Positions 5,317-61,945 of a stretch of 64,000 bases of DNA are shown here, piece after piece. Location of the stretch: the NCBI RefSeq assembly GCF_004217095.1, contig NZ_SHKO01000003.1, positions 372,001 through 436,000 of the forward strand, given 5' to 3'. Each line of letters opens with the position of its first letter. Positions within the stretch are counted from its first letter, which is position 1. A program made the translations under genes and the position numbers. The DNA is from Advenella incenata (lineage in GTDB: Bacteria > Pseudomonadota > Gammaproteobacteria > Burkholderiales > Burkholderiaceae_B). Under the pieces are notes generated by a model, which was given only the letters and a program-made list of their open reading frames with translations, was not told where the DNA came from and did not search any database.

Positions 5317-7422
5317 TCAGGCAAATTCGACTAGTGCATCGACGGCGATCACCCCCAGGCCTTGCGCTCGGATCAAGACTGGGTTGATGTCAATTGATCG
5401 GATGCTGGCAGAATGGGTCAGGGCAAACTTGCCCAGCTTGACGACCAGTTCGGCAAAGGCCTGCATATCTGCAGGGGGATCGCCGCGTACACCCTGCAGC
5501 AACGGTGCAATTTGCAATGTGCATAGTTTGTCCATGACATCGTCTATGGAAAACGGTGGGATCAATACGAAAACGTCCTGCAGCGCCTCAATATATTTGC
5601 CGCCCGTGCCTGCCATGATCACCGGTCCGAATACCGGATCCATATGTACACCCGCGGCAAATTCAAATAAGCCGTTTTCCATCGGTGCCACAACCCAGCG
5701 TTTGTCCCTGATTCCCAGTTTTTCAAGCGTTGCCCACTGCGAGTCAAAAACCTCACGAACTTTCGCTTCTGAATCGATCGCCAACGCTACCAGGCCATGC
5801 TCTGATTTATGCGGTATTTTTTCCGAACATGCCTTGATGACAACCGGGCGCTTGCAGGTTTGCCAATAGGCAACGGCCTGGTGAGCGTCGGTGCAGCGTA
5901 TATAGTCCACAACGGCAACACCCGCGCTGGCGAGCACGTCCAGACTATCGGCTTCACTCAGGATCGATCCTGCCTTGCCGGGTGCAATGGGTTTGCCAGG
6001 GATAGCCGACCAGTCGGCGGTGTTGCGCGTCAGGCTAGCGTGAAACCGGTGGGCGGCAGCAAGCGTACTCATTGCCTGTGCTTCATCGTCAAAAACCGGA
6101 ATGTTTTTTGCCCTGAATGCCTGTGCGACGGCGGGCTGCCAGGCCACCACCACCACCGTTTTTTTTGAATCTGACACAAAATTTTCGGTATCTTCGGCAA
6201 AGGTCGCGACATCGTAGCCGCGACCGGCAACCGGAATGTCGATGACGAAACTGTCTGCCTTTGGATCATTGCCTATACACGAGAGCACCTGTCCGAAAAG
6301 CCGATTGTTTGACAATAGTGCCGCGGTGATATCGACCGGGTTGCGGGTCGTCGCAAAGGAGGACAGATGCATGGACAGCTTGTTTTGGGTCGCGGCGGTC
6401 AGAGGGAGAACGCGCAGGCCGTTGTCTTCGGCTGCGTCTGCGGCCAGAACGCAACTGGCGCCGGAGTTGCTCACGATCACGGTCTGGTTGCCGGCAGGCA
6501 GCGGGCTGCGCAGGACAAACTCGGCATAGCGCACCAGCTCATGAGGATCGCCAGCCCGCAAAATGCTGTGCTGCTCGAAGAAAGCATTGATGGTGCTGTC
6601 CTGATTGGCCAGCGCTCCCGTGTGAGAGGCCGCCGCTTGCGCACCCGATGGCGTATGGCCGGACTTGATTGCGATAAGGGCAACGCCACGCTGTTTTGCC
6701 AGGGCAGCGACGGCAGCGAGTTCTGCCGCGTTCTGGAGCGACTCCAGGTACATGAGAATCAATTTGATGTCAGGATCATGCAAGGACGCCATGGCCAACT
6801 GACCTACGGTTATATCCGCTTCGTTGCCGGTGGCATGCACGTGGCGCACACCGATGCCCCTGTTGCGCAGCAAGCCGTAGATCATGGCGCTCATGCCGCC
6901 ACTCTGGCTGATCACAGAGACAGGCCCGTCACCCGGTTCGATCTCCAGAAACATGGTGGAAAAACACGCAATCGCGCCATTGCCGAAATTTGCCAATCCT
7001 TGTGAGTTGGGGCCAACGATACGCATGCCTTGTGCGCTTGCCAGGCTGCTCATGCGATCCTGCAACAGCTTGCCTTGCGGGCCGGTCTCTGAAAATCCGG
7101 CGGTAATGACAATGGCAGCGGATACGCCCAGTTCGCTGCATGCCTTGACCGAATCGACCGCTGCCTGGCCGGCAACCGCAATGATGACCAGCTCCGGGAC
7201 CTCGGGCAGATCTTGCACGGATCCCCAGGATTTTTCTCCCTGAATGATGTCACGGGTTGGATTGATCGGGTATATTTTTCCGGTGTATCCATGCTTTTTC
7301 ATGTAATAAACCGGCCGCCCGCCAATCTTGTCCGGATTGTCGGAGGCGCCGATGATGGCAACCGAGGAAGGATTGAGCAATGCCGCCAGGGAGGGATCAC
7401 TTTGATACAGGAGTGTTGTCAT
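5317..7422 (-). CDS. ADP-forming acyl-CoA synthetase (acetate-CoA ligase ADP-forming type, fused alpha-beta)
   Basis: 701 residues. An N-terminal CoA-binding Rossmann domain (NPSSVAIIGASDNPDKIGGRP, about residues 17-37) is followed by a succinyl-CoA-ligase-like domain. This contains SQSGGMSAM (about 172-180) and the probable phosphohistidine H267 in ASHTGALA. The C-terminal third is an ATP-grasp domain ending in VIMAGTGGKYIEAL and DINPVLI. The family makes acyl-CoA from an organic acid, CoA and ATP, releasing ADP and phosphate through a phosphohistidine. This is the last gene of the leftward IclR-led operon, 14 bp behind a Bug receptor, so it may activate the acid which that receptor binds. 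The ribosome site AAAGG precedes ATG 7422. The true acid substrate is unknown. Confidence 0.85.
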   Translation of the reverse strand: MTTLLYQSDPSLAALLNPSSVAIIGASDNPDKIGGRPVYYMKKHGYTGKIYPINPTRDIIQGEKSWGSVQDLPEVPELVIIAVAGQAAVDSVKACSELGVSAAIVITAGFSETGPQGKLLQDRMSSLASAQGMRIVGPNSQGLANFGNGAIACFSTMFLEIEPGDGPVSVISQSGGMSAMIYGLLRNRGIGVRHVHATGNEADITVGQLAMASLHDPDIKLILMYLESLQNAAELAAVAALAKQRGVALIAIKSGHTPSGAQAAASHTGALANQDSTINAFFEQHSILRAGDPHELVRYAEFVLRSPLPAGNQTVIVSNSGASCVLAADAAEDNGLRVLPLTAATQNKLSMHLSSFATTRNPVDITAALLSNNRLFGQVLSCIGNDPKADSFVIDIPVAGRGYDVATFAEDTENFVSDSKKTVVVVAWQPAVAQAFRAKNIPVFDDEAQAMSTLAAAHRFHASLTRNTADWSAIPGKPIAPGKAGSILSEADSLDVLASAGVAVVDYIRCTDAHQAVAYWQTCKRPVVIKACSEKIPHKSEHGLVALAIDSEAKVREVFDSQWATLEKLGIRDKRWVVAPMENGLFEFAAGVHMDPVFGPVIMAGTGGKYIEALQDVFVLIPPFSIDDVMDKLCTLQIAPLLQGVRGDPPADMQAFAELVVKLGKFALTHSASIRSIDINPVLIRAQGLGVIAVDALVEFA

Positions 7423-7436
7423 TACGTGCCTTTGGG

Positions 7437-8417
7437 TCAGTTAACGGTTGCGCCGGAAGTGTTGACGACGTCTTTCCATTTGCTGATTTCTTCAGATAGA
7501 TAAGTGGAAAACTGTGCGGGACTCAGCCATCTTGCGTCAAAGCCCTGGGCTGAAAAAGTCTGTTGGACTTGCCGATTGGCCAGAGTCGACTTTAATGCCG
7601 CACTCAATTTGTCAGTCACTTGTACTGGCGTTCCTTTTGGCGCCAACAGACCGTTCCATGCGGTAGCCGAGTAGCCGGCAAGGCCGCTCTCGGCCACCGT
7701 GGGTATGTCCGGCAGTACGGCTGACCTGCTTTGACCGGTTACTGCGAGCGCCTTGAGCTTCCCGTCTTTGATATAGGGCAAAGAAGATAAAAGGGTGTTG
7801 AACATGACATCGACCTGTCCCCCAATCAGATCCGTCATGGCTGGCGCACTGCCTTTGTAGGGCACATGCACCATCGTGATTCCGCTCATTGAGTTAAATA
7901 GCGCCGCAGACAGATGGGTGGACTGTCCGTTGCCGGATGAAGCAAAAGTCAGTTTTTTATCGGCTTTTTTAGCCAGACGGATCAGGTCCTGTATATTGTT
8001 GGCGCCCAGATCGCTGCGGGTGACAATGACCAGGGGACCTTCGGTCAGCAGGGTAATCGGCGTAAAGCTCGTGCTGACGTCGTAATTGAGCGCCCTGAAC
8101 AGTGATTTGTTGATTGCATGCGCCGTGGTACCCAGCAATAAGGTATAGCCATCAGGTTTGCTCCTTGCGACCAGCTCAGCCCCAATATTGCCACCCGCGC
8201 CGGCCCGATTGTCCACCACGATTGTCTGCTGCAGCTGCTCGCCCAGGTTTTTGGCAACCACACGGGCCACGATGTCTGTGGGACCGCCGGGCGGGTAGGG
8301 TACAACCAGCGTAATGGGCTTTTGCGGCCATTGGCCCTGTGCCATCACCGCTGCAGGCAGACAGAGCAAGGCGGCCAGTGCAATACGGAAATGCCTTTTT
8401 GCATTTGATGTTTTCAT
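7437..8417 (-). CDS. Bug-family (TctC-like) periplasmic solute receptor
   Basis: 326 residues with a cleavable signal peptide (MKTSNAKRHFRIALAALLCL, then AVMAQG). The Bug-family hallmark follows: WPQKPITLVVPYPPGGPTDIVAR, then VDNRAGAGGNIG and TLLLGTTAHAIN. These proteins bind carboxylates in the periplasm. No TctA/TctB membrane genes are nearby, so this is one of the orphan receptors typical of Bordetella relatives. It lies between the DUF35 gene (37 bp) and the acyl-CoA synthetase (14 bp) in one operon. This suggests it captures the acid that the locus degrades, either for uptake or for signalling. A strong AAAGGAAGAG ribosome site precedes ATG 8417. Confidence 0.9.
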   Translation of the reverse strand: MKTSNAKRHFRIALAALLCLPAAVMAQGQWPQKPITLVVPYPPGGPTDIVARVVAKNLGEQLQQTIVVDNRAGAGGNIGAELVARSKPDGYTLLLGTTAHAINKSLFRALNYDVSTSFTPITLLTEGPLVIVTRSDLGANNIQDLIRLAKKADKKLTFASSGNGQSTHLSAALFNSMSGITMVHVPYKGSAPAMTDLIGGQVDVMFNTLLSSLPYIKDGKLKALAVTGQSRSAVLPDIPTVAESGLAGYSATAWNGLLAPKGTPVQVTDKLSAALKSTLANRQVQQTFSAQGFDARWLSPAQFSTYLSEEISKWKDVVNTSGATVN

Positions 8418-8454
8418 TGTCTCTTCCTTTCTATATGAATGATCCCGCTATTGG

Positions 8455-8811
8455 TCAGGATTCAGGTTGTGCGTTTTGCTGATGCCGGCTGAACCGGATG
8501 AATTCGGTCGTGGATGCAGATTGCACGCTGCCGATAACGAGATCACCGACGGCGAGCTCGGTATCTGCCTGTCCCATGACGGTTGGCCCCTCGTCAAGCG
8601 TGACCAGTACAATGGTGTATGGGGCCAGCGCACGCCAACGAGCATCCGGCGCACGAGTGACGACTGAACAGGCTTTGACTACCCCCACACCTTTGCTTTG
8701 CAGATCGTGCAGTTGCGTGTTGCCGCAGGTTGCGCATGCAAACGGATGCAAAGACCAATTGCTGCCGCAACGGCTGCAGTGTTTCAGCATTAAGCAGCGT
8801 CCCGTCGTCAT
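8455..8811 (-). CDS. DUF35 protein: zinc ribbon plus OB-fold, partner of the thiolase-fold enzyme
   Basis: 118 residues. A zinc ribbon is formed by C12-x2-C15 and C26-x2-C29 (HCSRCG, FACATCG). It is followed by an OB-fold domain with PYTIVLVTLDEGPTVMGQ and LAVGDLVIG, the DUF35 pattern. Such proteins form complexes with SCP2-thiolase-like enzymes and hold the acyl-CoA; the steroid aldolase partner ChsH2 is an example. The start codon overlaps the stop of the thiolase-fold gene by four bases (ATGA), which supports ATG 8811 and translational coupling. Function is inferred from family and context. Confidence 0.82.
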   Translation of the reverse strand: MTTGRCLMLKHCSRCGSNWSLHPFACATCGNTQLHDLQSKGVGVVKACSVVTRAPDARWRALAPYTIVLVTLDEGPTVMGQADTELAVGDLVIGSVQSASTTEFIRFSRHQQNAQPES

Positions 8812-9953
8812 GCTGTTTCTCCCGTAGCCCGAAGGATCAGGCTGATATGCGAGGACAGGACACCGCCGTCAGCATGGATGAATGCCTGCTTTTTGCGTGC
8901 TATCTGTCTGTCCTTGGCCCGTCCTGCCAGTTGCGCCCATGTTTCGGCAATATGCGCCATGCCGCCGGCAACGCCCGAATGGCCGAACGAGAGCAGACCA
9001 CCGTGGGTGTTCAACGGTAATGGCCCATCTGTGGAAAATTTTCCCTGTCGAACATCGTTGGCCGATTGCCCACGTTGTGCAAACCCCAATTCCTCAAGCA
9101 ATATTGCGAGCGTGATCGTGAACGAATCGTAAATACCCAGGTAATCAATATCCTTGCGACTTATCTTTGCGTCTGCCAGCGCCCGGGTCGCGGCTGCGGC
9201 CGCGCCGGTATCGTAGATATCGCCAATTCTTGACAGATGCTGATGCTGATGGGCCTGACCTGCGCCCGTGATCGCTACGGGACCCGGCCTGGCGCTGACC
9301 AGAATGGCGCAGGCGCCATCTGAAATCGGGCAGCAGTCCAATAACTGTAATGGCGATGAGATGGGTTTGGATTGCAGGACATCGTCAACAGTAATGGCGT
9401 TCTGCAGGTGGGCATGGGGATGGGTCGAGGCATGGTGTCGCATGAGTACGGCAAATTCGGCCAGGTCGGCTTTTGTCAGCCCGGTCCTATGCATGTACTC
9501 GGAAGCAAGCAAGGCATAGTAGGTGGGCACCGAGGCCCCACAGGGCACCTCCAGGTCTGCTTCGCCTACCTGTGCCAGTGTTTGCATGGACGAGTCCGTG
9601 CTTTGCCCGGAAAGCCGGTTCTCGCCAGCTACGACCAGGACATGCTGACATCTTCCGGACAGGATCAGTTCCCGGGCGAGCATCACCATGGCAGCGCCTG
9701 TTGCGCCACCCAGTTGCATGCCATGGGCATAAGCAGGATTGAGGCCCAGCTTTTCAGAAAGCAGTGTTGCCAGCATCAGATGAGGAAATGTCGTGGCATA
9801 TCCGCAGAGCACGCCGTCAATGTCCCGGCGTTCCATGCCGGCCATTGTGAGGCAATCGTTTGCTGCTTCGGCAAGCAGGTCTAAGGTTGTGGAGTCGTCG
9901 CGCCTGCCGAATTTTGTGGTGACAGCCGACAGGATATGGGCTTGTGTATTCAT
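8808..9953 (-). CDS. SCP2-type thiolase-fold enzyme lacking the nucleophilic cysteine; possible acyl-CoA retro-aldolase
   Basis: 381 residues with the thiolase fold of the sterol-carrier-protein-X type. It shows GATGAAMVMLARELILSG at about 84-101, the PLQLLDCCPISDGACAILVS core, and NTHGGLLSFGHSGVAGG. In active thiolases a cysteine lies at the start of the helix near residue 83. Here the segment is MQLGGATGAAM with no cysteine, and the C-terminal CxG site is replaced by HADGGVLSSH. Together with the coupled DUF35 gene, this points to a lyase or retro-aldolase such as Ltp2 rather than a beta-ketothiolase. It is the second gene of the operon, 11 bp after the IclR gene, with an AAGGAAG ribosome site. 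The substrate is unknown. Confidence 0.85.
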   Translation of the reverse strand: MNTQAHILSAVTTKFGRRDDSTTLDLLAEAANDCLTMAGMERRDIDGVLCGYATTFPHLMLATLLSEKLGLNPAYAHGMQLGGATGAAMVMLARELILSGRCQHVLVVAGENRLSGQSTDSSMQTLAQVGEADLEVPCGASVPTYYALLASEYMHRTGLTKADLAEFAVLMRHHASTHPHAHLQNAITVDDVLQSKPISSPLQLLDCCPISDGACAILVSARPGPVAITGAGQAHQHQHLSRIGDIYDTGAAAAATRALADAKISRKDIDYLGIYDSFTITLAILLEELGFAQRGQSANDVRQGKFSTDGPLPLNTHGGLLSFGHSGVAGGMAHIAETWAQLAGRAKDRQIARKKQAFIHADGGVLSSHISLILRATGETA

Positions 9954-9964
9954 TTTTTGCTTCC

Positions 9965-10714
9965 TTATCTGGCAGGAAAATGCGTTTTTTCAATCAATCT
10001 GGCTTCTTGCATCAGGTCGTCTGCAATACTGTTTTGTCTGCTCAATATGCGTTCCGATAACGACGCCAGGCTCAACGCAGCAATGGCCGTGCCGTCCGGT
10101 GCCCGGATGGCAACACCGATCCCACCCATTTGCTTGACCACGACGTCGCACAACACCGCATATTGCTGCTGGCGGCAAAGCGCGATTTGCGTTTTCAGCA
10201 TGGACTGGTTGAACATGGGATAGCGTTTGTCTATCTGTTCGTGAATGCATGGCAAATACATCTGTTGTTGCGCATCGCTCAGGGCGGCCAGCAGCACCAG
10301 ACTGCCGGCACCTACGCCAAGCGGACGACGGCTGCCGATCTCAAGGTAGTTGGCGCGTATCGGATAGTCGCCCAGACAGGTATCCACGCACACCGACTCC
10401 CAGTTGCTTGGTATCGACAGGATCAGCGAGTCGCCATATTTCCTGGCCATGCGCACCAGGGCAGGGCGGGCCAGTGCGCGGATGTCCTGGCGCGCGACCA
10501 TGGCATGATGCATTGCGTAGATTTCCCGGCCCAGGGTGTATTCCTTGGTTTGCGGTTCCCGTTCCACGAAATCCAGCTTTTCCAGATCTTTCAGGATGCG
10601 CAGCACGGATGAAATATCCAGATCGGTGAAACGCGCAATGTCGGTCAGTTTGCAAATACGGCGGTCTGACAGGCAGGATAGTATTCTGCAGATTTTTTCG
10701 GTTGCGGATGTCAT
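9965..10714 (-). CDS. IclR-family transcriptional regulator
   Basis: 249 residues. An N-terminal winged helix (about 5-65: KICRILSCLSD, LTDIARFTDLDISSVLRILKDL) is followed by an effector domain with RPLGVGAGSLVLLAAL and GGIGVAIRAPDGTAIAALSLAS, as in IclR proteins. It is the first gene of the leftward acyl-CoA operon and divergent from the SDR-led operon. It therefore most likely controls both arms from the shared 204-bp region, which holds a 19-nt palindrome. IclR effectors are often small organic or aromatic acids. Start ATG 10714. Confidence 0.9.
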   Translation of the reverse strand: MTSATEKICRILSCLSDRRICKLTDIARFTDLDISSVLRILKDLEKLDFVEREPQTKEYTLGREIYAMHHAMVARQDIRALARPALVRMARKYGDSLILSIPSNWESVCVDTCLGDYPIRANYLEIGSRRPLGVGAGSLVLLAALSDAQQQMYLPCIHEQIDKRYPMFNQSMLKTQIALCRQQQYAVLCDVVVKQMGGIGVAIRAPDGTAIAALSLASLSERILSRQNSIADDLMQEARLIEKTHFPAR

Positions 10715-10872: not shown

Positions 10873-10901
10873 TTGACTTCATTTCATATGCAATTTATAT
10901 T
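10873..10901 (+). promoter_or_regulatory. Candidate promoter of the SDR-led operon
   Basis: TTGACT (10873-10878) and TATATT (10896-10901) are separated by 17 nt, close to the sigma-70 consensus. The predicted start near 10908 would leave a very short leader before ATG 10919, so another start slightly upstream is possible. Confidence 0.4.
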
Positions 10902-10918: not shown

Positions 10919-11686
10919 ATGACAAATCTGTTAAATCTGGATGGGAAAACCGTATTGGTGACTGGCGCCGCCGGTGGCCTCGGGACACATTTTTCTGAAA
11001 CGCTCGGTGCGGCAGGAGCGCGGGTAGTGCTCGCGGGACGCCGTCAGGCGCCCTTGCAGGCCCTGTCCGGCAAACTCACTGAACTTGGCATTGAAAATCT
11101 GCCGGTGGTGATGGACGCCACCGACCCTGATTCGGTCTGCGGGGCATTCGATCAAATACACCGCGTGTTTGGCATTGTGGATGTTGTCGTGTGCAATGCG
11201 GGCCTGGGAATCAATAAGAAATCCCTGGCATTGTCGGTCAACGAATTTATCGAGGTGATCGATGTCAACCTGAAAGGCAGCTGGATCGTTGCCAATGAAA
11301 CGGCCAGGCGTCTGATCGCAGCCGACCGGCAAGGCAGTGTGATCATGATTACCTCTATTCTGGGGCATCGCGTGGCCGGGGCAGTGCTGCCCTATACCAC
11401 ATCAAAAGCGGCACTTGAACAAATGACTAAAGCCCTTGCGCTGGAGTGGGCTCGTTATGGCATCCGCGTCAATGCACTGGCGCCGGGTTACATCCTGACC
11501 GACCTGAATCGGGATTTTTTCGAGTCGCAGGCTGGCAAGGCCCTGATCGGCAGAATTCCACAGCGACGTCTGGGGCAGCCGGATGACTTGACGGGTGCCT
11601 TGCTGCTGCTGGCGTCTGACTCATCAAACTATATGACTGGCAGCTGTATCGTTGTCGATGGCGGCCATTTGCAATCATCTTTATAG
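10919..11686 (+). CDS. Short-chain dehydrogenase/reductase (SDR)
   Basis: 255 residues, classical SDR. Cofactor motif TGAAGGLG (15-22), NAG (93-95), catalytic S146 (ITS) and Y159-TTSK163. The loop after the first beta-alpha unit carries RR at 41-42, which can favour NADP(H). It ends with the usual GSCIVVDGGH. The enzyme would oxidise or reduce a hydroxy/keto group of an acyl-CoA or acid. As first gene before an acyl-CoA dehydrogenase, APH kinase, DUF6285 protein and ligase, it occupies the role of LvaD (4-keto reductase) of the P. putida levulinate pathway; this is inference from gene content. The AGGAGA ribosome site is 5 nt before the ATG. Confidence 0.88.
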   Translation: MTNLLNLDGKTVLVTGAAGGLGTHFSETLGAAGARVVLAGRRQAPLQALSGKLTELGIENLPVVMDATDPDSVCGAFDQIHRVFGIVDVVVCNAGLGINKKSLALSVNEFIEVIDVNLKGSWIVANETARRLIAADRQGSVIMITSILGHRVAGAVLPYTTSKAALEQMTKALALEWARYGIRVNALAPGYILTDLNRDFFESQAGKALIGRIPQRRLGQPDDLTGALLLLASDSSNYMTGSCIVVDGGHLQSSL

Positions 11687-11690
11687 GGAT
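11685..11690 (+). promoter_or_regulatory. Ribosome site that sets the TTG start of the acyl-CoA dehydrogenase
   Basis: AGGGAT overlaps the SDR stop codon and lies 6 nt before TTG 11697. The upstream in-frame ATG start would lie inside the SDR gene without a comparable site. Confidence 0.6.
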
Positions 11691-11696
11691 AAAAAA

Positions 11697-12893
11697 TTGG
11701 ATTTCACTCTATCGGAAGAAACAGAACAGCTGCGCGTGAAAATCAGGCGCTTCGTTGACGAAACATTGATTCCGCTTGAAAAACAGCCGGACTCTTATGA
11801 TGAACATGAAAATATCGCCCCTGCGCTGTTAAAGACAGTCCAGCAACAGGCGCGCGCCCAGGGCCTGTGGTCATTGCAAATGCCGCTGGCCAGAGGCGGG
11901 CGAGGCCTGAGCATGGCGCAAATGGCGCCGTGCTATGAAGAGATGAATCGGTCCCTGTTCGGGCCGGTCGTGTTCAATTCGGCAGCACCTGACGACGGCA
12001 ATATGATGGTGCTTGAAAAAGTCGCAACCGAAGCGCAGAAGACACGGTGGCTGCAGCCTATCGTCGATGGCACGGTCAGATCATCATTTGTGATGACAGA
12101 GCCGGCGCCCGGTAGCGGGTCCGATCCTTCCATGATGCAAACCACTGCGACCCGTGAGGGGAACGACTGGGTGATTCGGGGGCGCAAGCATTTTATTACT
12201 GGCGCCGGTGTGGCATCCCATTTCATTCTTATGGCAAGAACCTCGGATGACAGTCGCAAGGGCCTGACTGCCTTTTTGTTTCACCGGGATGACCCTGGCT
12301 GGGAAATCGCTCGCCGGATTCCCATTATGGGGCCAGAGGAGCATGGCGGACATTGTGAGCTGATATTTGATGGCCTGCGGATTGCCGACGAGAATCGTTT
12401 GATGAACGTTGGCGATGGTCTGAAGCTGACGCAAATCCGCCTCGGGCCAGCCAGACTTACGCATTGCATGCGGTGGCTGGGGCTGGCCAAGCGTTCGATG
12501 GAAATTGCCACGGACTATGTTTCCCATCGTGAGTCCTTCGGCGCAAAGCTGGCAGAACGAGAAGGCGTGCAATGGCTGCTCGGTGAAGCCGCTATGGAAA
12601 TACAGATCAGTCGCCTGCTGACCATGCATGCTGCCTGGAAGCTGGATCAGGGGGACTTTGCCCGCAAAGAGGTGTCCATGGCAAAAGTGGCAGTGGCCGA
12701 TACCTTGCATAAAGCGGTTGATACAGCCATACAGTTGTGCGGGGCCCGTGGTTACTCCAAAGACACGCCGCTGGAATGGATCTACCGCTATGCACGACAG
12801 GCACGCCTGGTCGACGGAGCCTCTGAAGTGCATAAAATGGTACTGTCCAGAAACCTGCTGCTTGAAGGTAATGATTTCTGGCGCTGGGGTTAG
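11697..12893 (+). CDS. Acyl-CoA dehydrogenase, ACAD10/11-like
   Basis: 398 residues from a TTG start, giving MDFTLSEETEQL, the normal N-terminus of the family. An in-frame start at 11652 would add 15 residues inside the SDR gene. Motifs: FVMTEPAPGSGSDPSMM (flavin and acyl binding), HFITGAGVASHFILMAR, QLCGARGYSKDTPLEWIYR and LVDGASEVHKMVLSR. The usual catalytic Glu (as in YEGT) is Asp here (D373, VDGASEV), as in ACAD10/11-type enzymes. In the lva pathway the equivalent LvaC acts on 4-phosphoryloxyacyl-CoA made by the kinase. The kinase gene starts 1 bp after this stop codon, which fits that coupling. FAD enzyme, cytoplasmic. Confidence 0.88.
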   Translation: MDFTLSEETEQLRVKIRRFVDETLIPLEKQPDSYDEHENIAPALLKTVQQQARAQGLWSLQMPLARGGRGLSMAQMAPCYEEMNRSLFGPVVFNSAAPDDGNMMVLEKVATEAQKTRWLQPIVDGTVRSSFVMTEPAPGSGSDPSMMQTTATREGNDWVIRGRKHFITGAGVASHFILMARTSDDSRKGLTAFLFHRDDPGWEIARRIPIMGPEEHGGHCELIFDGLRIADENRLMNVGDGLKLTQIRLGPARLTHCMRWLGLAKRSMEIATDYVSHRESFGAKLAEREGVQWLLGEAAMEIQISRLLTMHAAWKLDQGDFARKEVSMAKVAVADTLHKAVDTAIQLCGARGYSKDTPLEWIYRYARQARLVDGASEVHKMVLSRNLLLEGNDFWRWG

Positions 12894-12894
12894 C

Positions 12895-13932
12895 ATGGAT
12901 ATGCAGTCGCTTTCCCGGAAAATTTCAGATGCGATAAAAGAGTGGACGGGTGCGTGCGCAGTGGCTGTGACGGATTTCAGAAAACTCTCCGGGGGCGCGA
13001 TCCAGAATAACTACAGCATTTCACTTGAAATGACTTCGGGCACGCATCCGGGATCGCATCAGTTTGTGGTTCGCAGCGATGCGCCATCCCAGATTGATGC
13101 GTCGCTCAGCCGGGAACAGGAGTTCGCCGTTCTGCGTTGCGCCTGCGAAGCAGGGGTGACGGCGCCGGAACCATTATGGCTTTGCACCGATACGTCATTG
13201 ATCGGCCATGCTTTTTACGTGATGCGTTGCGCGTCAGGATCCGCCAACGGCCGGCAATTGATAAAGACCTTGACCCAGGAACAGGGCAGAGCCCTGACAT
13301 ACCGGCTGGGTCAGGAACTTGGCCGCTTGCATCGTATCGGCCCCGACCATGCACAACTGGATTTTTTGCCGGTTCCTTCTGCGCCTGCTGCTCAAACTCG
13401 AATCGCCGAATACCGGCAGGCGCTCGATCGCATCGCGCAGCCGCATCCGGTGCTCGAATGGGCGCTGAACTGGCTGCAGGACCATGCGCCGGCGGCGTCA
13501 CCTTTGGTGCTGTGTCATTGCGATTTCAGAACCGGCAACTATATGGTCTCGCAAGGTGAGCTGACTGCGGTGCTTGACTGGGAGTTTGCCGCCTGGAGCG
13601 ATCCCTATGAAGATCTTGGCTGGCTGTGTGCAAAAAGCTGGCGCTTTGGCAATGTTGCCAGGGAAGTAGGCGGCGTCGGTGACAAGCCCGACCTGTTTGC
13701 CGGGTATACCTCTGTGACCGGTAAGCAGGTTGACGCACAAAAAGTCGGCTATTGGGAAATCATGGCCATGGTGCGCTGGTCTGTTATCGCTCTGCAGCAG
13801 GGGCAGCGCCATGTGTCCGGACAGGAAATATCACTGGAGCTGGCCCTGACCGGGCGCATGGTTCCGCAAATGGAGTTTGATATTTTATCGCAGTGCCTGA
13901 ATACGGAAAACGCTTATGTCAAACCAACCTGA
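12895..13932 (+). CDS. APH-like phosphotransferase, possible 4-hydroxyacyl-CoA kinase (LvaA-like)
   Basis: 345 residues from ATG 12895, one base after the acyl-CoA dehydrogenase stop. The open frame extends further left, but only as an overlap with that gene. It has the aminoglycoside-phosphotransferase/choline-kinase fold. The catalytic loop is LCHCDFRTGNYMV (H208, D210, N215) and the metal site is LDWEFAAWSDPYEDLGWL (D228, E230). Linked to an ACAD10/11-type dehydrogenase and a DUF6285 protein, it is unlikely to be a drug-resistance kinase. Established knowledge: LvaA of P. putida and the kinase domain of ACAD10/11 phosphorylate the 4-hydroxyl of 4-hydroxyacyl-CoA. It overlaps the next gene by 17 bp. 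Confidence 0.85.
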   Translation: MDMQSLSRKISDAIKEWTGACAVAVTDFRKLSGGAIQNNYSISLEMTSGTHPGSHQFVVRSDAPSQIDASLSREQEFAVLRCACEAGVTAPEPLWLCTDTSLIGHAFYVMRCASGSANGRQLIKTLTQEQGRALTYRLGQELGRLHRIGPDHAQLDFLPVPSAPAAQTRIAEYRQALDRIAQPHPVLEWALNWLQDHAPAASPLVLCHCDFRTGNYMVSQGELTAVLDWEFAAWSDPYEDLGWLCAKSWRFGNVAREVGGVGDKPDLFAGYTSVTGKQVDAQKVGYWEIMAMVRWSVIALQQGQRHVSGQEISLELALTGRMVPQMEFDILSQCLNTENAYVKPT

Positions 13933-14293
13933 TGCACATAATCTGCTGGTCACGGCACGTCAGTTGCTGTTGGACGAACTGGTGCCAGTGCTTGATGAAC
14001 AACATCGCTATGCGGCGCTCATGATTGCAAATGCCATTGGCATTGCCGCCAGGGAGATCGCGCCGCCGGTGGCTGAAGATGATATTGGCAAGGCGCTCGA
14101 CGCTTTTCTGGCGGGGGTGGGCGCAGACGGCGAGTATTCGTCGGTCAGGGCCGAGGCGGCGCTGGCGCAGCTGATCCGACATCGGAAAATTCCGGCAGAC
14201 AGGAAGTCTGGTGAGGCCTTAACCGATTTGCTAATGCACCTGACCCGCAGCAAGCTGAGGATCAGCAATCCGAAATTCCTGAATGAAAACTGA
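13916..14293 (+). CDS. DUF6285 protein, likely accessory subunit of the kinase
   Basis: 125 residues, helical, no signal peptide or membrane segment. The sequence (ARQLLLDELVPVLDEQHRYAALMIANAIGIAAREI, then LMHLTRSKLRISNPKFL) matches my recollection of DUF6285. That family is regularly found next to APH-like kinases and acyl-CoA dehydrogenases. It overlaps the kinase gene by 17 bp, so the two products are probably made in equal amounts. In P. putida the kinase LvaA needs a small partner, LvaB, of similar size; whether DUF6285 is the same family needs a profile comparison. No catalytic motif is visible. Confidence 0.75.
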   Translation: MSNQPDAHNLLVTARQLLLDELVPVLDEQHRYAALMIANAIGIAAREIAPPVAEDDIGKALDAFLAGVGADGEYSSVRAEAALAQLIRHRKIPADRKSGEALTDLLMHLTRSKLRISNPKFLNEN

Positions 14294-14306
14294 GGAAGCA
14301 GCGACC

Positions 14307-15962
14307 ATGACCGACGTCTATCATAGTGGTTTGGACAAAAATCCTGCCAATTATTCCAGTCTTTCTCCGGTCGATTTCCTGCGGCGCTCGGCAACCGTGT
14401 TTCCTGGCAAGACGGCAGTGATCGATCAGCAGTCATACAGTTATTTGCAATTATATAAACGGGTTGTACGCATGGCATCGTCCTTGTCCAGCATGGGCAT
14501 CGGCAGAAACGATACGGTGTCCGTGCTTTGCTTCAATACCCTGGAGTTGCTGGAGACGCATTATTCTGTGCCTATGCTGGGCGCCGTGCTCAATACGCTG
14601 AATACCCGGCAGGATGCTGCCTCCTTGCGCTATATCCTGGCGCATTGCGAATCCAGTGTATTGATTTACGATACAGAGTTTGAATCGCTGGTCGGGCAGA
14701 TTATCGATGACCTTGACAAGCCGCCGGCCCTGATTGCAATTGCCCGCGACGGCGGGCCTGCCGTAATGCAGGGGCATCAGCGTTATGAAGATCTGGTCAG
14801 TGCCGGGGACGACAGTTTTGTCTGGCAGAAGGTTCAGGATGAATGGGATCCGATCTCATTGAACTACACCTCTGGCACAACGGGCAATCCCAAGGGCGTG
14901 GTCTACCACCATCGGGGCGCCTGGCTGTCGGCCATGAGCAATGCCATGGCGTTGAACATGACGGCCGATAGCGTATATTTGTGGACCTTGCCCATGTTCC
15001 ACTGTAACGGCTGGTGCTATACCTGGGCAGTGACTGCCGTGGGCGGCACGCATGTCTGTTTGCGCAAGATCGATCCTGAACAAATTCACCAAAAAATTGT
15101 TGACCATAAGGTAACCCACATGTGCGGTGCACCGGTGGTGTTGAATATGATATTGAATGATTTCAGCAACCGGGGATGGACCATTCCGCTGCCGACGCGT
15201 TTTGCGTTGGGTGGGGCGGCACCCTCGGCGACGGTGGTGCGCAAGGGGCAGGAAGTCGGGTTTGATATTTGCCATTTATACGGGCTGACCGAATCCTATG
15301 GCCCATCTGCTGTGTGTGTCTGGCAAAACGACTGGGAGACGCTGGACGCTGACGCGCTGGCAGAAAAAATGTCGCGCCAGGGCACAGGGCTGTATGCCAT
15401 TGATGCGCTTGCCGTGTTGGATCGTACCTCGGCAGAGCCGGTGCCGGCAGATGGCACAACACTCGGAGAGCTGGCGCTGCGGGGCAATACGGTTATGAAA
15501 GGCTATTTGAAGAATCCCGCCGGGACACGGGAAGCGTTTGCGGACGGCTGGTTTCGCACCGGCGATCTGGCCGTCATGCACCCCGACAATTATGTCGAAA
15601 TCAAGGATCGGGCCAAGGATATTATTATTTCAGGAGGGGAGAATATATCCAGCAAGGAAATCGAGGATGTTCTTTACCGCCATCCCGAGGTTTTCGAAGT
15701 GGCAGTTGTCGCATTGCCGGACGAAAAGTGGGGAGAGGTGCCCTGCGCTTTCATTACATTGAAAAATGAAGACACTGAGCGCGATCCGGCAGAGTTCGTC
15801 CGGTATTGCTCGCAGCACTTGGCTTCGTTCAAGGTACCTAAAAAAATTGTATTGGGGCAGTTGCCGAAAACGGCAACGGGAAAAATCCGAAAGAATATAC
15901 TCAGGGACCTGGCACGCGAGACCGGCGACGACAGCCCACCGCCTGGAGCAATGCCGCAATAG
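14307..15962 (+). CDS. AMP-forming acyl-CoA synthetase (ANL superfamily)
   Basis: 551 residues from ATG 14307, chosen because GAGGAAG lies 8 nt upstream. An ATG at 14283 would overlap the preceding gene and has no ribosome site. Motifs in order: SLNYTSGTTGNPKGVVYHH (P-loop), YGLTESYGP, GWFRTGDLA, KDRAKDIIISGGENISSKEIE and the C-terminal catalytic lysine in PKTATGKIRKN. This is the medium/long-chain fatty-acid ligase group. It makes an acyl-adenylate and then acyl-CoA, and would be the entry step (LvaE-like) of the rightward operon. Because the divergent operon holds a second, ADP-forming acyl-CoA ligase, the two may act on different substrates. Confidence 0.9.
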   Translation: MTDVYHSGLDKNPANYSSLSPVDFLRRSATVFPGKTAVIDQQSYSYLQLYKRVVRMASSLSSMGIGRNDTVSVLCFNTLELLETHYSVPMLGAVLNTLNTRQDAASLRYILAHCESSVLIYDTEFESLVGQIIDDLDKPPALIAIARDGGPAVMQGHQRYEDLVSAGDDSFVWQKVQDEWDPISLNYTSGTTGNPKGVVYHHRGAWLSAMSNAMALNMTADSVYLWTLPMFHCNGWCYTWAVTAVGGTHVCLRKIDPEQIHQKIVDHKVTHMCGAPVVLNMILNDFSNRGWTIPLPTRFALGGAAPSATVVRKGQEVGFDICHLYGLTESYGPSAVCVWQNDWETLDADALAEKMSRQGTGLYAIDALAVLDRTSAEPVPADGTTLGELALRGNTVMKGYLKNPAGTREAFADGWFRTGDLAVMHPDNYVEIKDRAKDIIISGGENISSKEIEDVLYRHPEVFEVAVVALPDEKWGEVPCAFITLKNEDTERDPAEFVRYCSQHLASFKVPKKIVLGQLPKTATGKIRKNILRDLARETGDDSPPPGAMPQ

Positions 15963-16026: not shown

Positions 16027-16722
16027 ATGAAAACTGATTTTGAAAACTTTAAACATGAGCTGAGCCTGACCAAGGCGGAAATATGCCGTCAGCTCTATGT
16101 ACAACACACCGACATGATCCGGATAAAGAAAGAACATGTGGCCGTCAAGAATCTGATCAGGATTATTGATTCGACCCTGCGTCTGGCGTCCACGAAGGGA
16201 TTTCACGCGATGACCCTGCGGGACCTGTGTGCAGATTCCGGTTTCAGTATCGGTGGCTTGTATGCCTATATCCGCAATAAAAATGATTTACTGGTTTTGA
16301 TCCAGGGACACGGGTTTATGTTGACTCGCAGTACCCTGCGCAAGAGTATTCGTGATATAAGCGACCCGTTTGAGCGATTGCGTGCCGCCGTCTCGGCCCA
16401 TCTCTTTTTAAGCGAAATTATGCTGCCCTGGTTTTACTTTTCATTTATGGAAGTCAAAAGCCTGCCCAAGGCGCAAATGAAAACGGCGATTGCGGTCGAA
16501 CAGGAAATCGAAGACATTTTCTTTGACATTATCGACAGCGGGGTGCGCGACGGTGTTTTCAGAAGCGATAATGCCAGGCTTCTTGCGTCCATGATAAAGG
16601 CGATGATGCAGGATTGGTATCTGAAGCGGCGCAAGCATCGCAATCAGTCGATCACCGTGAGTCAATATGCAGATTTCATCATCGATATGCTGGCCTGCAG
16701 TCTGAAGGTGTCGCGCTCTTGA
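16027..16722 (+). CDS. TetR-family transcriptional regulator
   Basis: 231 residues. The TetR HTH lies at about residues 50-95 (IIDSTLRLASTKGFHAMTL, GFSIGGLYAYIRNKNDLLVL). It is followed by an all-helical ligand domain ending with MIKAMMQDWYLKRRKHRNQSI. A 40-residue stretch before the HTH is unusual and rich in charged residues; a later start is possible, but no better ribosome site is visible. The gene lies 64 bp behind the acyl-CoA ligase on the same strand, so it may belong to that operon and regulate it by acyl-CoA sensing, next to the IclR protein. That role is inferred from position. Confidence 0.85.
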   Translation: MKTDFENFKHELSLTKAEICRQLYVQHTDMIRIKKEHVAVKNLIRIIDSTLRLASTKGFHAMTLRDLCADSGFSIGGLYAYIRNKNDLLVLIQGHGFMLTRSTLRKSIRDISDPFERLRAAVSAHLFLSEIMLPWFYFSFMEVKSLPKAQMKTAIAVEQEIEDIFFDIIDSGVRDGVFRSDNARLLASMIKAMMQDWYLKRRKHRNQSITVSQYADFIIDMLACSLKVSRS

Positions 16723-17793: not shown

Positions 17794-19245
17794 TTAAATG
17801 ACATACATGTCCACATATTCGTGCACTGGCATGGCTTCGAGCGCTTGCTGATCCAGCGAGACAGCCAGGATCTGCTCCTGTTGCTTGCCAGGAAACACCC
17901 GGGCCAGGTTGATACGGAATTTGGCTTCAAGCAGCGGGATACCGTCTTTACGACGGCGCTTGTGGCCTATCGGATATTCGCAGACAACTTCATCCAGCTT
18001 GCTGCCGTCGTTGAACTCAACCGTGAGAGCATTGGCGATAGAACGTTGCTCGGGATCATGATAGTCGCGAGTGAAGGCAGGGTCCTCTACACATTCGATT
18101 TTCTCGCGCAACGCATCGATGCGCGGGTCGGCAGCGATCCCATCCTCGTAGTCGCCTGCAGTGAGGCGACCGAACAGCACGGGCACGGCAACCATATACT
18201 GAATGCAGTGATCGCGGTCGGCCGGATTGTTCAGCGGCCCTTTTTTGTCGATGATACGGATACACGCTTCGTGGGTACGGATGGTGATTTTCTTGATATC
18301 GTCGGTGGTCTTGCCGGCAGCCTTGAGCTGATCATGAATCTGCATGGCGCATTCAACCGCTGTCTGCGCATGAAACTCGGCCGGGAACGAGATCTTGAAC
18401 AGCACGTTTTCCATGACGTAGCTGCCGTAAGGGCGCTGGAACTTGAAGGGCTGCCCTTTGAACAGCACATCATAAAACCCCCAGGTTTTTGCCGTCAGGA
18501 CCGACGGATAACCCATCTCGCCGGTTTTAGCCATCAATGCCAGGCGTACGGCGCGGCTGGTGGCGTCGCCGGCAGCCCAGGATTTGCGGCTGCCTGCATT
18601 GGGGGCGTGACGATAGGTGCGCAGGCTTTGACCATCCACCCAGGCCAGCGATACGGCGTTGATGATTTCGTCGCGCGTTAAGCCCAGCATTTGCGCAACC
18701 ACTGCGGTCGACGCCACTTTGACCAGAACAACATGGTCCAGGCCTACTTTGTTGAACGAGTTTTCAAGTGCAATGCACCCCTGGATTTCGTGCGCCTTGA
18801 TCATGCCTGTGAGCACTTCACGCATGGTCAGCGGCGCCTTGCCTGCGGCCACTGCGTTGCGCGAGAGCCAGTCAGCTGTAGCCAGAATGCCGCCCAGGTT
18901 ATCCGATGGGTGGCCCCATTCTGCGGCAAGCCAGGTGTCATTAAAGTCGAGCCAGCGGATCATGGTGCCGATATTGAACGCCGCCTGTACCGGGTCCAGC
19001 GCAAATTGCGTGCCCGGAACCTTGGCGCCATTGGGCACCGTGGTGCCCGGCACGATGGGGCCCAGCAGCTTGCGGCATGCCGGGTATTCAAGCGCTTCCA
19101 GACCGCAGCCCAGCGTATCGATCAGGCAGTTGCGCGCGGTTTCGTACGCAACATCGCTGCTGATTTCATAGTTGAGAACGTAGTCGACAATATCGACAAG
19201 TACCTGATCGGGCTCAGGACGAACATTTGAAATATGACTGGACAT
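17794..19245 (-). CDS. prpD: 2-methylcitrate dehydratase
   Basis: 483 residues, the full length of bacterial PrpD (MmgE/PrpD superfamily). Recognisable segments: [49 protein letters not shown] and [15 protein letters not shown]. It dehydrates 2-methylcitrate to 2-methyl-cis-aconitate in the cytoplasmic methylcitrate cycle of propionyl-CoA. It is the last gene of the leftward prpB-prpC-prpD operon, 39 bp after prpC. Rehydration to methylisocitrate could be done by the AcnB at 1506; no acnD or prpF is present here. The start is ATG 19245. Confidence 0.95.
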
Positions 19246-19284: not shown

Positions 19285-20502
19285 TTATTTGCGTTTGGAC
19301 AGCGGTACGAATTTCTGATCGTCCGGGCCGGTGTAGTTGGCGGTTGGCCGGATGATCTTGTTGTCGATGCGCTGTTCAATAATGTGAGCTGACCAGCCTG
19401 CTGTTCGCGCGATGACAAACAGCGGGGTAAACATCGACGTGGGAATGCCCATCATGTGGTAGGACACCGCGGAGAACCAGTCCAGGTTCGGAAACATCTT
19501 TTTGATGTCCATCATCACTGTTTCCAGTCGTTCTGCAATATCGAACATCTTGGTGGTGCCCGCATCCTGTGACAGTTTTTTGGACACCCGTTTGATCACG
19601 ACATTGCGCGGGTCGGAAATGGTGTACACCGGGTGACCGAATCCGATAATCACTTCCTTGTTTTCTACACGCTTGCGAATGTCGGCTTCGGCCTCGTCAG
19701 GCGAGTCATAGCGTTTCTGTACTTCAAAAGCCACTTCGTTGGCGCCGCCATGTTTCGGACCGCGCAGCGCGCCGATGGCCCCGGTGATGGCAGAGAACAT
19801 ATCCGAACCTGTACCGGCAATGACGCGTCCCGTAAATGTAGAGGCATTAAATTCGTGCTCTGCATACAGGATCAGCGACGTGTGCATGGCGCGAACCCAT
19901 TCTTTGGATGGCTTCTCGCCATGAAGCAGATGCAGGAAATGACCGCCGATGCTGTCGTCGTCCGTCTGCACATCGATGATACGGCCGTTATGGCTGAAGT
20001 GGTACCAGTAGAGCAGGGCGGAACCCAGGCTGGCCATCAGTCTGTCGGCGATATCGCGGGCGTCGGCCACATTGTGATCGTCCTTCTCGGGCAGGGTGCA
20101 ACCCAGGACCGAAACAGCGGTTCGCATGACATCCATCGGATGACTATGGGCGGGTAGCGATTCAAGCACTGTTTGCAGGTTGGCCGGCAGGCCACGATAA
20201 CGTTTGAGCTTCTGTTTGTAGGCGGTCAATTCAGCCTGCGTGGGCAGTTTGCCATGGATGAGCAGATGAGCGATCTCTTCAAATTCACTGGAGTCGGCCA
20301 GGTCAAGAATGTCGTAGCCGCGGTAATTTAAGTCGTTGCCGCTGCGGCCGACCGTGCAAATGGCCGTGTTGCCCGCTACAACGCCGGACAGGGCGACCGA
20401 TTTTTTCGGTTTGAAGCCGGCAGGATTGTCTGCGGTCGTTGCGGCGGCGGGTGCGCTGGCGGTTTTGCTGGCTTTTGTAGGCTTGGTAGCTTTTGTAGAC
20501 AT
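19285..20502 (-). CDS. prpC: 2-methylcitrate synthase
   Basis: 405 residues, citrate-synthase fold with the shorter prpC-type architecture. Active-site motifs: [29 protein letters not shown] and [14 protein letters not shown]. It condenses propionyl-CoA with oxaloacetate. The N-terminus carries an extra Lys/Ala/Thr-rich stretch of about 30 residues ([14 protein letters not shown], then SAPAAATTA) before the conserved start at [18 protein letters not shown]; this is longer than usual and probably unstructured. A strong AGGAGATAACACC ribosome site precedes ATG 20502. It follows the deleted prpB by 27 bp, so the operon is otherwise intact. Confidence 0.95.
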
Positions 20503-61207: not shown

Positions 61208-61945
61208 ATGACACAAAAAATAGCATATGTTACGGGCGGGATGGGAGGAATCGGGACCTCCATATGCCAGCGCCTGCACAAAGATGGATTCACGGTTATC
61301 GCCGGCTGCGGTCCGCAACGCAATGCCCAGCAGTGGATTGACGAACAGGCGGCACAGGGATACACATTCTATGCTTCAGCAGGGAATGTGTCAGACTGGG
61401 ATTCTACTGTTACTGCGTTTGAAAAGGTCAGGGCTGAACACGGTCCAGTGGACGTTCTGGTAAACAACGCCGGCATTACGCGTGATGGAGTTTTTCGTAA
61501 AATGTCCATTGATGACTGGCGTGCGGTCATGGACACCAATCTGAACAGTCTGTTCAATGTGACCAAACAGGTGATTGAACATATGTATGAAAAGCGTTGG
61601 GGGCGTATCATTAATATCAGCTCTGTCAACGGACAGAAAGGGCAGTTTGGCCAGACTAACTATTCCACGGCCAAAGCGGGTATCCACGGCTTTACCATGG
61701 CCCTGGCGCAGGAAGTGGCCAGTCGCGGGGTTACCGTCAACACGGTTTCTCCTGGTTATATCGGCACCGACATGGTGCGTGCCATCCGCCCCGAGGTACT
61801 GGAGCAAATCGTTGGAACCATCCCGGTTCGTCGTCTGGGTACGCCCGAAGAAATTGCCTCGATTGTGTCATGGCTGGCTTCAGACGAATCCGGTTTTTCC
61901 ACCGGCGCCGACTTCTCGGTCAATGGTGGCCTGCACATGGGTTAA
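61208..61945 (+). CDS. phaB: Acetoacetyl-CoA reductase
   Basis: 245 residues, SDR family. Cofactor motif TGGMGGIGTSICQRL, NNAGITRDGVFRKM, catalytic serine in NISSVNGQKGQFGQTNYSTAKAG with YSTAK. The sequence is very close to the known PhaB type (GMGGIGT, ITRDGVFRKM, GFTMALAQE). It reduces acetoacetyl-CoA with NADPH to (R)-3-hydroxybutyryl-CoA for PhaC. An ideal TAAGGAG ribosome site precedes the ATG. It is distinct from the SDR at 10919, which belongs to another locus. Confidence 0.95.
   Translation: MTQKIAYVTGGMGGIGTSICQRLHKDGFTVIAGCGPQRNAQQWIDEQAAQGYTFYASAGNVSDWDSTVTAFEKVRAEHGPVDVLVNNAGITRDGVFRKMSIDDWRAVMDTNLNSLFNVTKQVIEHMYEKRWGRIINISSVNGQKGQFGQTNYSTAKAGIHGFTMALAQEVASRGVTVNTVSPGYIGTDMVRAIRPEVLEQIVGTIPVRRLGTPEEIASIVSWLASDESGFSTGADFSVNGGLHMG

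Follow-up and report, generated by a model that had tools for sequence, protein, structure and literature searches.

The closest described system is the lvaABCDEFG operon of Pseudomonas putida, which, as Rand et al. 2017 are said to have found, serves levulinate catabolism. Those findings, like the ones on strain KT2440, are taken here from parts of PMC6692424 and PMC9628823: LvaA, LvaB and LvaC are essential for growth on levulinate, LvaB pulls down with LvaA, and operons of such kind have been seen before, since lvaABCD homologues are reported from Alpha-, Beta- and Gammaproteobacteria (PMC6692424). Elimination from 4-phosphoacyl-CoA is reported for LvaC and for the mammalian acyl-CoA dehydrogenases (ACADs) ACAD10 and ACAD11; in mouse ACAD11, residues R626, R631, H634 and R637 and the catalytic D753 are substrate-binding (phosphate) or catalytic, and ACAD10/11 are inactive on the plain acyl-CoAs tested (PMC12440821, in part). 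Here, an operon of related make-up is described in Advenella incenata, within a window of 64,000 nucleotides (positions 372001-436000 of contig 3, NZ_SHKO01000003.1, of a 4.92 Mb genome). At 10919-15962 of this window, on the plus strand and with spacing that is nil or nearly nil, lie genes for a short-chain dehydrogenase/reductase (SDR), an ACAD, an APH-fold kinase, a DUF6285 protein and an AMP-forming acyl-CoA ligase, followed by a TetR-family regulator gene which is likely the last of the operon (Table 1). The locus very probably encodes five enzymes that catabolise a 4-oxo (or 4-hydroxy) carboxylic acid, in an operon that resembles lvaABCDE and forms a sister type to it.

P. putida 31753 (L073; loci and genomes carry L and G numbers throughout) and Stutzerimonas stutzeri S116 served as lva references, standing in for KT2440. 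The S116 operon came from a tblastn search of the DUF6285 protein against plasmids, which returned one record, NZ_CP078510, annotated with a PrpR-type regulator, phosphotransferase, DUF6285, histidine phosphatase, ACAD, SDR, acyl-CoA synthetase, DUF485 and acetate symporter; the P. putida 31753 operon, found in the scan of a contig collection, reads R (minus strand), A, B, C, D, E, DUF485 and symporter, an order with which the KT2440 locus numbers agree (PMC6692424, in part). Homologues of LvaA, B, C, D and E are thus common to both systems, in one operon and 40-53% identical, the window proteins sharing 159 of 335 aligned residues with P. putida 31753 LvaA (47.5%), 47 of 118 with LvaB (40%), 178 of 388 with LvaC (46%), 133 of 251 with LvaD (53%) and 279 of 544 with LvaE (51%); the ligase and LvaE both exceed the cut-off of the NCBIfam subfamily PRK08162. 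Each of the S. stutzeri proteins LvaA-E matches only the corresponding operon gene within the window, except LvaD, which also matches a PhaB-like SDR at 61208 (31%); over the whole genome, the best of 68 matches of P. putida LvaD is the window SDR (249 bits versus 161 for the next). The differences lie in the order, D-C-A-B-E against A-B-C-D-E, in the ACAD, as detailed below, and in the surroundings, for lva has the sigma-54 (PrpR-type) regulator LvaR and the DUF485/ActP transporter LvaFG adjacent, whereas here a TetR gene adjoins and neither is in the window: S. stutzeri PrpR, DUF485 and ActP gave no blastp match (E 1e-3) among the 551 open reading frames (ORFs) of the window, to which the search was confined, nor did its histidine phosphatase match any of them. 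Lva-type clusters with that phosphatase, such as the one reported for P. citronellolis LA18T, likewise have kinase, ACAD and SDR homologues in common with this operon, but carry the phosphatase gene after LvaB and, in several cases, a PrpR-type regulator and an ActP transporter. While lvaB is reported missing from a similar P. citronellolis cluster (PMC6692424, in part), L096, L097, L098, L101, L104 and L106 have a DUF6285 gene between LvaA and the histidine phosphatase gene.

A first-pass annotation, made from the letters alone, had named five closely spaced or overlapping genes of these families, with a kinase of intact HxDxxxxN and DxE motifs one base behind the ACAD; ORF reading and Pfam and NCBIfam matches bear all of this out, and add the TetR gene, which it had omitted from the operon. 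Its reading of the locus as an lva-like operon for 4-oxo/4-hydroxy acids is supported by the five Lva homologues, by the kinship of DUF6285 to LvaB and by the ACAD signature. The reservations that it had attached, namely a gene order unlike lva and no sigma-54 regulator, also stand (the window has no LvaR homologue), and its caution on the substrate was apt: the clade of the ACAD is a sister to that of LvaC, and the window has neither LvaR nor LvaFG.

Judged by profile, alignment and gene position, which is that of LvaB, DUF6285 is the LvaB family. In the profile comparison that the first-pass annotation had proposed, the LvaB of P. putida 31753 scores 72.2 bits against Pfam PF19802 (cut-off 28.1 bits) and the window protein 50.1; identity to LvaB is 40-45%, the upper value being that for S. 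stutzeri, and the global DUF6285/LvaB alignment scores 132, against a mean of -25 (standard deviation 12.7) and a maximum of 26 in 500 shuffles. A literature search for 'DUF6285' returned no paper naming the family. Counting the A. incenata genome, DUF6285 occurs in 40 of 250 family genomes and 9 of 369 class genomes. Its linkage to the kinase is near-obligate. Of the 39 other DUF6285-bearing genomes in the family sample, 20 were fetched with wide flanks, and in all 20 loci DUF6285 stands behind an APH kinase: 2 as a single ORF, 17 overlapping or at most 14 nucleotides past the kinase stop, and one at 132 nucleotides. The class search yielded 13 DUF6285 loci, 12 of them with an APH kinase: three are single ORFs (L065 partial), seven have the genes within 90 nucleotides, the gap in L069 is 400 nucleotides, and L061 is a 475-residue ORF in which DUF6285 was seen by Pfam and not by the custom profile; the exception, L072, is a DUF6285 match below cut-off and with stops. 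The contig-collection scan considered the best 80 of at least 438 kinase relatives and is weighted towards Pseudomonas, S. stutzeri LvaA being its first row; 78 of these 80 have DUF6285, 72 within 60 nucleotides, 3 fused and 3 at 91-230 nucleotides, where the true distance may be shorter because distances run to the best-scoring DUF6285 piece. In the other two, the contig ends inside the kinase (L139) or 0.9 kb after it (L121). An HCMR-type ACAD (see below) lies in the same stretch for 72 of the 80. The five-gene set is not a chance assembly, for other genomes repeat the kinase-DUF6285 pair and, in most cases, the ACAD with it.

The pair also occurs as in-frame fusions with the kinase N-terminal (L055, L056, L060, L067, L128, L147 and L150); Pfam, run on L056 and L147, confirmed both domains in each. 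The AlphaFold model of the window DUF6285 protein is all-helical (predicted local distance difference test, pLDDT, 88.7; predicted template modelling score 0.65). Foldseek with this model gave 28 matches at E <= 10, the best at E 1.1 (probability 0.30) and none at E <= 0.001; the sequence had 6 PDB matches up to E 10, none convincing (best 0.3), and the LvaB of L074 had none up to E 1. Any named fold was rejected for this lack of a convincing PDB match in structure or sequence. A model of the fusion L147 was built on an alignment that comprised 3 fusions and 18 kinases. It is confident over the kinase but of low confidence over DUF6285 (mean pLDDT 36-82 in blocks of ten residues starting at residue 381, 27-31 in the linker), so that no kinase-DUF6285 interface is claimed. 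In L040 (8014-9403) and L041 (7593-9106), DUF6285 adjoins a distant APH kinase and ACADs without the HCMR motif, which would represent a second, different use of the pair. The A. incenata genome has two further strong kinase genes (L058, L059), near which no homologue of a reference gene was found at the thresholds used.

The window ACAD carries RLGPARLTHCMR and LVDGASEVH, that is, the full set of equivalents of R626, R631, H634-CM-R637 and D753 of mouse ACAD11. Among 104 collected ACAD ORFs, 90 show H[CAS][ML]R plus the Asp, all 90 with the two upstream Arg at the right spacing, and the remaining 14 are without an HCMR-like motif; among 27 ACAD matches in the A. incenata genome, the motif was found in the window ACAD alone. 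The HCMR-like motif, together with the residues surrounding the Asp, served to define types 1 and 2, and rows with an aligned length below 300 residues were excluded from the type counts (thereby omitting at least L102, a 313-residue ORF with the motif). That every typed row shows these features follows from the definition and tests nothing; the test is the tree. A quick-method tree of the 104 rows separates type 1, which includes LvaC (52 rows; Shimodaira-Hasegawa-like approximate likelihood ratio test 97), type 2, which includes the window ACAD (38 rows; 100), and other ACADs. A careful tree of a hand-picked subset of 40 rows, rooted at the midpoint and accompanied by a program warning of long branches, supports type 1 and type 2 at 100/100 each, type 3 at 100/97 and the union of types 2 and 3 at 96/93, with the clade of all three set apart from six outgroup ACAD rows at 100/100; ACAD11 is represented in it by the type-3 rows and is not itself a row. 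LvaC and the window ACAD thus fall into different, fully supported types. This clade split, like the DUF6285-LvaB link, was not met in the literature surveyed.

Type 3 is ACAD11-like by sequence, row L210 reaching 484 bits to the ACAD11 structure 8v3u, and the window ACAD is 32-37% identical to six type-3 rows. Against the PDB, the window ACAD has 4hr3 and ACAD11 (2wbi, 8v3u, 8v3v) on top at 228-235 bits, the next match being at 182; for S. stutzeri LvaC, ACAD11 is also on top but weaker, at 196 bits, with the next, an ordinary ACAD, at 183. ACAD10, ACAD11 and the bacterial type 3 have the R/R/H/R phosphate-binding cluster and the catalytic Asp in common, and type 2 groups with type 3; they differ from the present case in that kinase and ACAD are separate proteins in the window and the kinase has a DUF6285 partner, of which kind the ACAD10/11 literature surveyed makes no mention. 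In the tree, then, the window ACAD is bracketed by two groups with reported 4-phosphoacyl-CoA elimination, LvaC and ACAD10/11, and it is mainly for this position between characterised groups that confidence in the chemistry is high.

Type-3 enzymes have a further connection to lva-like genes. G619, G621 and G622 have LvaE/D/A/B-like genes with no LvaC beside them and carry a type-3 ACAD with RLGPGRIHHCMR/LADGPDEVH; G620 has both a type 1 and a type 3 ACAD, and G618, with LvaE/D/A/B-like genes and no adjacent LvaC, gave no match at E 1e-80. The four loci with LvaE/D/A/B-like genes but no LvaC alongside are L112, L115, L120 and L131, and in three of their genomes the ACAD10/11-like enzyme lies elsewhere. 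The identity of ACAD10/11 to 'LvaC' given as 62%/56% in the part of PMC11342911 available seems to fit type-3 ACADs better than the operon LvaC. Scores to ACAD11 are 188-196 bits for S. stutzeri LvaC versus 472-484 for a type-3 row. The LvaA and LvaE accessions listed in PMC11342911 seem to belong to other genes.

The pathway can be proposed by analogy, each reaction being modelled on characterised relatives. The ligase would convert the acid to its acyl-CoA, the SDR would reduce 4-oxoacyl-CoA to 4-hydroxyacyl-CoA, and the APH-fold kinase, whose small subunit would be DUF6285, would form 4-phosphoacyl-CoA; the ACAD would hold the phosphate by the R/R/H/R cluster and, with transient use of its flavin, expel it, leaving a 2-enoyl-CoA for beta-oxidation. 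The enzyme set most likely moves 4-oxo/4-hydroxy acids into normal fatty-acid breakdown; with a five-carbon (C5) substrate, levulinate, the end products would be propionyl-CoA and acetyl-CoA. The operon would work like lva and ACAD10/11, with the same enzyme superfamilies, yet lacking two features of P. putida, an ACAD of the LvaC clade and LvaR/LvaFG alongside.

The 20 fetched family loci comprise 13 of type 2 (the window being additional), 3 of type 1 and 4 with neither type within the stretch. The SDR is present in all 13 type-2 loci, as is a TetR homologue (56-97% identity), which is found in none of the 3 type-1 loci. In L051 (9307-10937, G002) the ligase is split into two overlapping ORFs, a frameshift or a sequencing error. 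A branched-chain-amino-acid-type ABC transporter stands between ligase and TetR in five family loci (L046 and L053 were read, Pfam was run on L046, and the others were assigned by clustering), and in five or six type-2 loci overall; L043 and L045 have another ABC ATPase. Neighbours were clustered, some small clusters looking like antisense or chance ORFs, and from the recurrent neighbours of type-2 operons no common substrate emerged. A large POR/TPP-type oxidoreductase (DUF6537) follows the type-2 ACAD-kinase-DUF6285 genes in L133 (10583-14077) and L138 (10437-13949).

Several observations weigh against a fixed five-enzyme operon of this function. The ligase is present in 10 of the 13 family type-2 loci and absent from L039, L043 and L052; among the 24 type-2 loci of the contig scan, some on short contigs, the SDR is found in 15 and the ligase in 10 at 40% identity or more, so that the fixed core is kinase-DUF6285-ACAD and not the five-gene set. 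In G033 and G065, the kinase-DUF6285-TetR genes are apart from the type-2 ACAD, which sits elsewhere in the genome, and within the genus sample DUF6285 occurs in just 3 of 10 genomes, A. incenata included. Another ligase of the A. incenata genome matches LvaE slightly better than the window ligase does (598 versus 580 bits), and the ligase is for this reason not diagnostic. Lastly, no type-2 enzyme whose activity had been tested was met in the literature surveyed.

Two readings would remove the operon from this chemistry altogether. The kinase might act on an unrelated alcohol, in the manner of 25-hydroxysteroid or aminoglycoside kinases, with incidental neighbours: Foldseek, run on a model of the related fusion L147 and not on the window kinase, lists 9fsg, 9ft5 and APH enzymes after 3dxp, and the 25-hydroxysteroid and APH/MPH kinases have the fold, as judged on that fusion, in common with it. 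But the window kinase is nearly half identical to LvaA over 335 residues, its own PDB matches are weak (52 bits at best, and 32.4 to the 25-hydroxysteroid kinase 9fsg, a distant sequence), and most of the 80 relatives considered have an HCMR-type ACAD at hand; no DUF6285 or HCMR ACAD partner is known for the 25-hydroxysteroid, APH or MPH kinases, and this reading is highly improbable. Hardly any more credit is due to the idea of the ACAD as an ordinary acyl-CoA dehydrogenase that passes electrons to electron-transfer flavoprotein in an operon for general fatty-acid oxidation. The ACAD and ligase families are indeed broad, with no NCBIfam equivalog at cut-off for either, yet the enzyme has the Asp and the R/R/H/R cluster of ACAD10/11, inactive on the plain acyl-CoAs tested (PMC12440821, in part), its nearest solved relatives are ACAD11 and 4hr3, and outgroup ACADs split off with full support in the careful tree.

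Within the preferred reading of a 4-oxo/4-hydroxy acid operon, the substrate is rather some acid other than levulinate, levulinate itself having the smaller, though considerable, share. That the operon is strictly for levulinate (C5), functionally equal to lva with the regulator and transporter alone exchanged, is a serious possibility, held at roughly one chance in three. In its favour are the full set of LvaA-E homologues and the position between acnB and prpD/prpC, which would handle the propionyl-CoA from levulinate; phaC/phaB are in the same window (NCBIfam), and a PrpR/LvaR-type sigma-54 regulator does occur in the type-2 loci L089 and L132. In the contig scan, however, a PrpR-type regulator goes with 2 of 24 type-2 loci, as opposed to 24 of 48 for type 1, the LvaG-type symporter is found in 0 and 12 and the histidine phosphatase in 1 and 19, respectively; the ACAD is outside the LvaC clade and LvaR and LvaFG homologues are not in the window. 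Since prpD is near lva-like genes in just 2 of 101 other loci (L038, of the same genus, and L055), the prp neighbourhood is weak evidence. A little short of an even chance is given to another, longer or branched, 4-oxo/4-hydroxy acid, the operon working in this genus with the divergent thiolase-like/OB-fold/CoA-ligase module that precedes it (Table 1). Two species of the genus have the module next to the operon, other type-2 operons have the branched-chain-amino-acid-type ABC transporter instead, and the thiolase-like protein may be no ordinary thiolase. Against it, adjacency was observed in no more than two genera, and the thiolase orthologue (at least 60% identity; 44 of 250 family genomes) is not enriched with DUF6285, its share being 8 of 40 among the family genomes that carry DUF6285 and 36 of 210 among the rest.

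By these counts, the divergent module (5317-10714, minus strand) was rejected as an established part of the pathway, and because co-occurrence fails to support such a role it is kept as a rival only; it is possibly associated with the operon, which it adjoins also in G071, of the same genus, and with which it is co-directional in G070. The thiolase-like protein, which is paired with the OB-fold protein, reads GGATG at what we take to be the position of the acyl-accepting Cys in thiolases, and may be a non-thiolytic enzyme, for example one of aldolase type. As for the operon itself, TTG 11697 is the most likely ACAD start, the resulting length of 398 residues being that of several relatives (the ORF listing picks the earlier TTG 11652), and for the ligase an ATG 24 bases further is also possible. 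The promoter-like site before the SDR gene is suggestive only, because the region has 8 such sites versus 4.8 +/- 2.4 in shuffles.

Table 1. Position of the operon, its motifs and the neighbouring genes in the 64,000-nucleotide window.
Feature	Position	Strand	Basis and remarks
acnB	1506-4091		NCBIfam
Ligase with Succ_CoA_lig and ATP-grasp domains	5317-7422	-	Divergent module; Pfam
TctC solute-binding protein	7437-8417	-	Divergent module; Pfam
OB-fold protein	8455-8811	-	Divergent module
Thiolase-like protein	8808-9953	-	Divergent module
IclR	9965-10714	-	Divergent module
Sigma-70-type promoter-like site before SDR, TTGACT-17-TATATT	10873-10901	+	10 of 12 consensus matches
SDR, LvaD homologue	10919-11686	+	PF13561, E 4.6e-52; GxxxGxG and YxxxK present
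ACAD, type 2 clade, LvaC/ACAD10/11 superfamily	11697-12893	+	PF00441, E 3.7e-38; TTG start, 398 residues
ACAD signature RLGPARLTHCMR	12438-12473	+	Equivalent to mouse ACAD11 R626, R631, H634-CM-R637
Catalytic Asp codon (LVDGASEVH)	12813-12815	+	Equivalent to D753 of mouse ACAD11
APH-fold kinase, LvaA homologue	12895-13932	+	PF01636, E 3.6e-41; ATG 1 base past ACAD stop
HxDxxxxN catalytic motif, HCDFRTGN	13516-13539	+	Read from kinase sequence
DxE metal-binding motif, DWE	13576-13584	+	Read from kinase sequence
DUF6285, LvaB homologue	13916-14293	+	PF19802, E 4.7e-13, 50.1 bits (cut-off 28.1); 17-base overlap with kinase
AMP-forming acyl-CoA ligase, LvaE homologue	14283-15962	+	PF00501, E 1.7e-73; NCBIfam PRK08162, 771.8 bits (cut-off 677); 11-base overlap with DUF6285 gene
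TetR-family regulator	16027-16722	+	PF00440 and PF17932; 64 bases past ligase
prpD, methylcitrate cycle	17794-19245	-	NCBIfam, over cut-off
prpC, methylcitrate cycle	19285-20502	-	NCBIfam, over cut-off

To sum up, DUF6285, an unnamed Pfam family, gains a likely role as the small partner needed by bacterial 4-hydroxyacyl-CoA kinases, a partner to which the ACAD10/11 literature surveyed shows no counterpart. A broader proposition, to which we give even odds, is that DUF6285/LvaB is a general accessory subunit, with a fold absent from solved structures, of a wide bacterial family of APH-fold acyl-CoA kinases, that three eliminase clades (LvaC, type 2 and the ACAD10/11-like type 3) use such kinases, and that type-2 operons serve non-levulinate 4-oxo/4-hydroxy acids. 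A third clade of putative phosphate-eliminating ACADs, together with the natural kinase-DUF6285 fusions, would offer a test set for the role of LvaB and for the use of FAD without net oxidation, and the type-2 operons may be a source of enzymes for the upgrading of levulinate or gamma-lactones and for polyesters containing 4-hydroxyacids.

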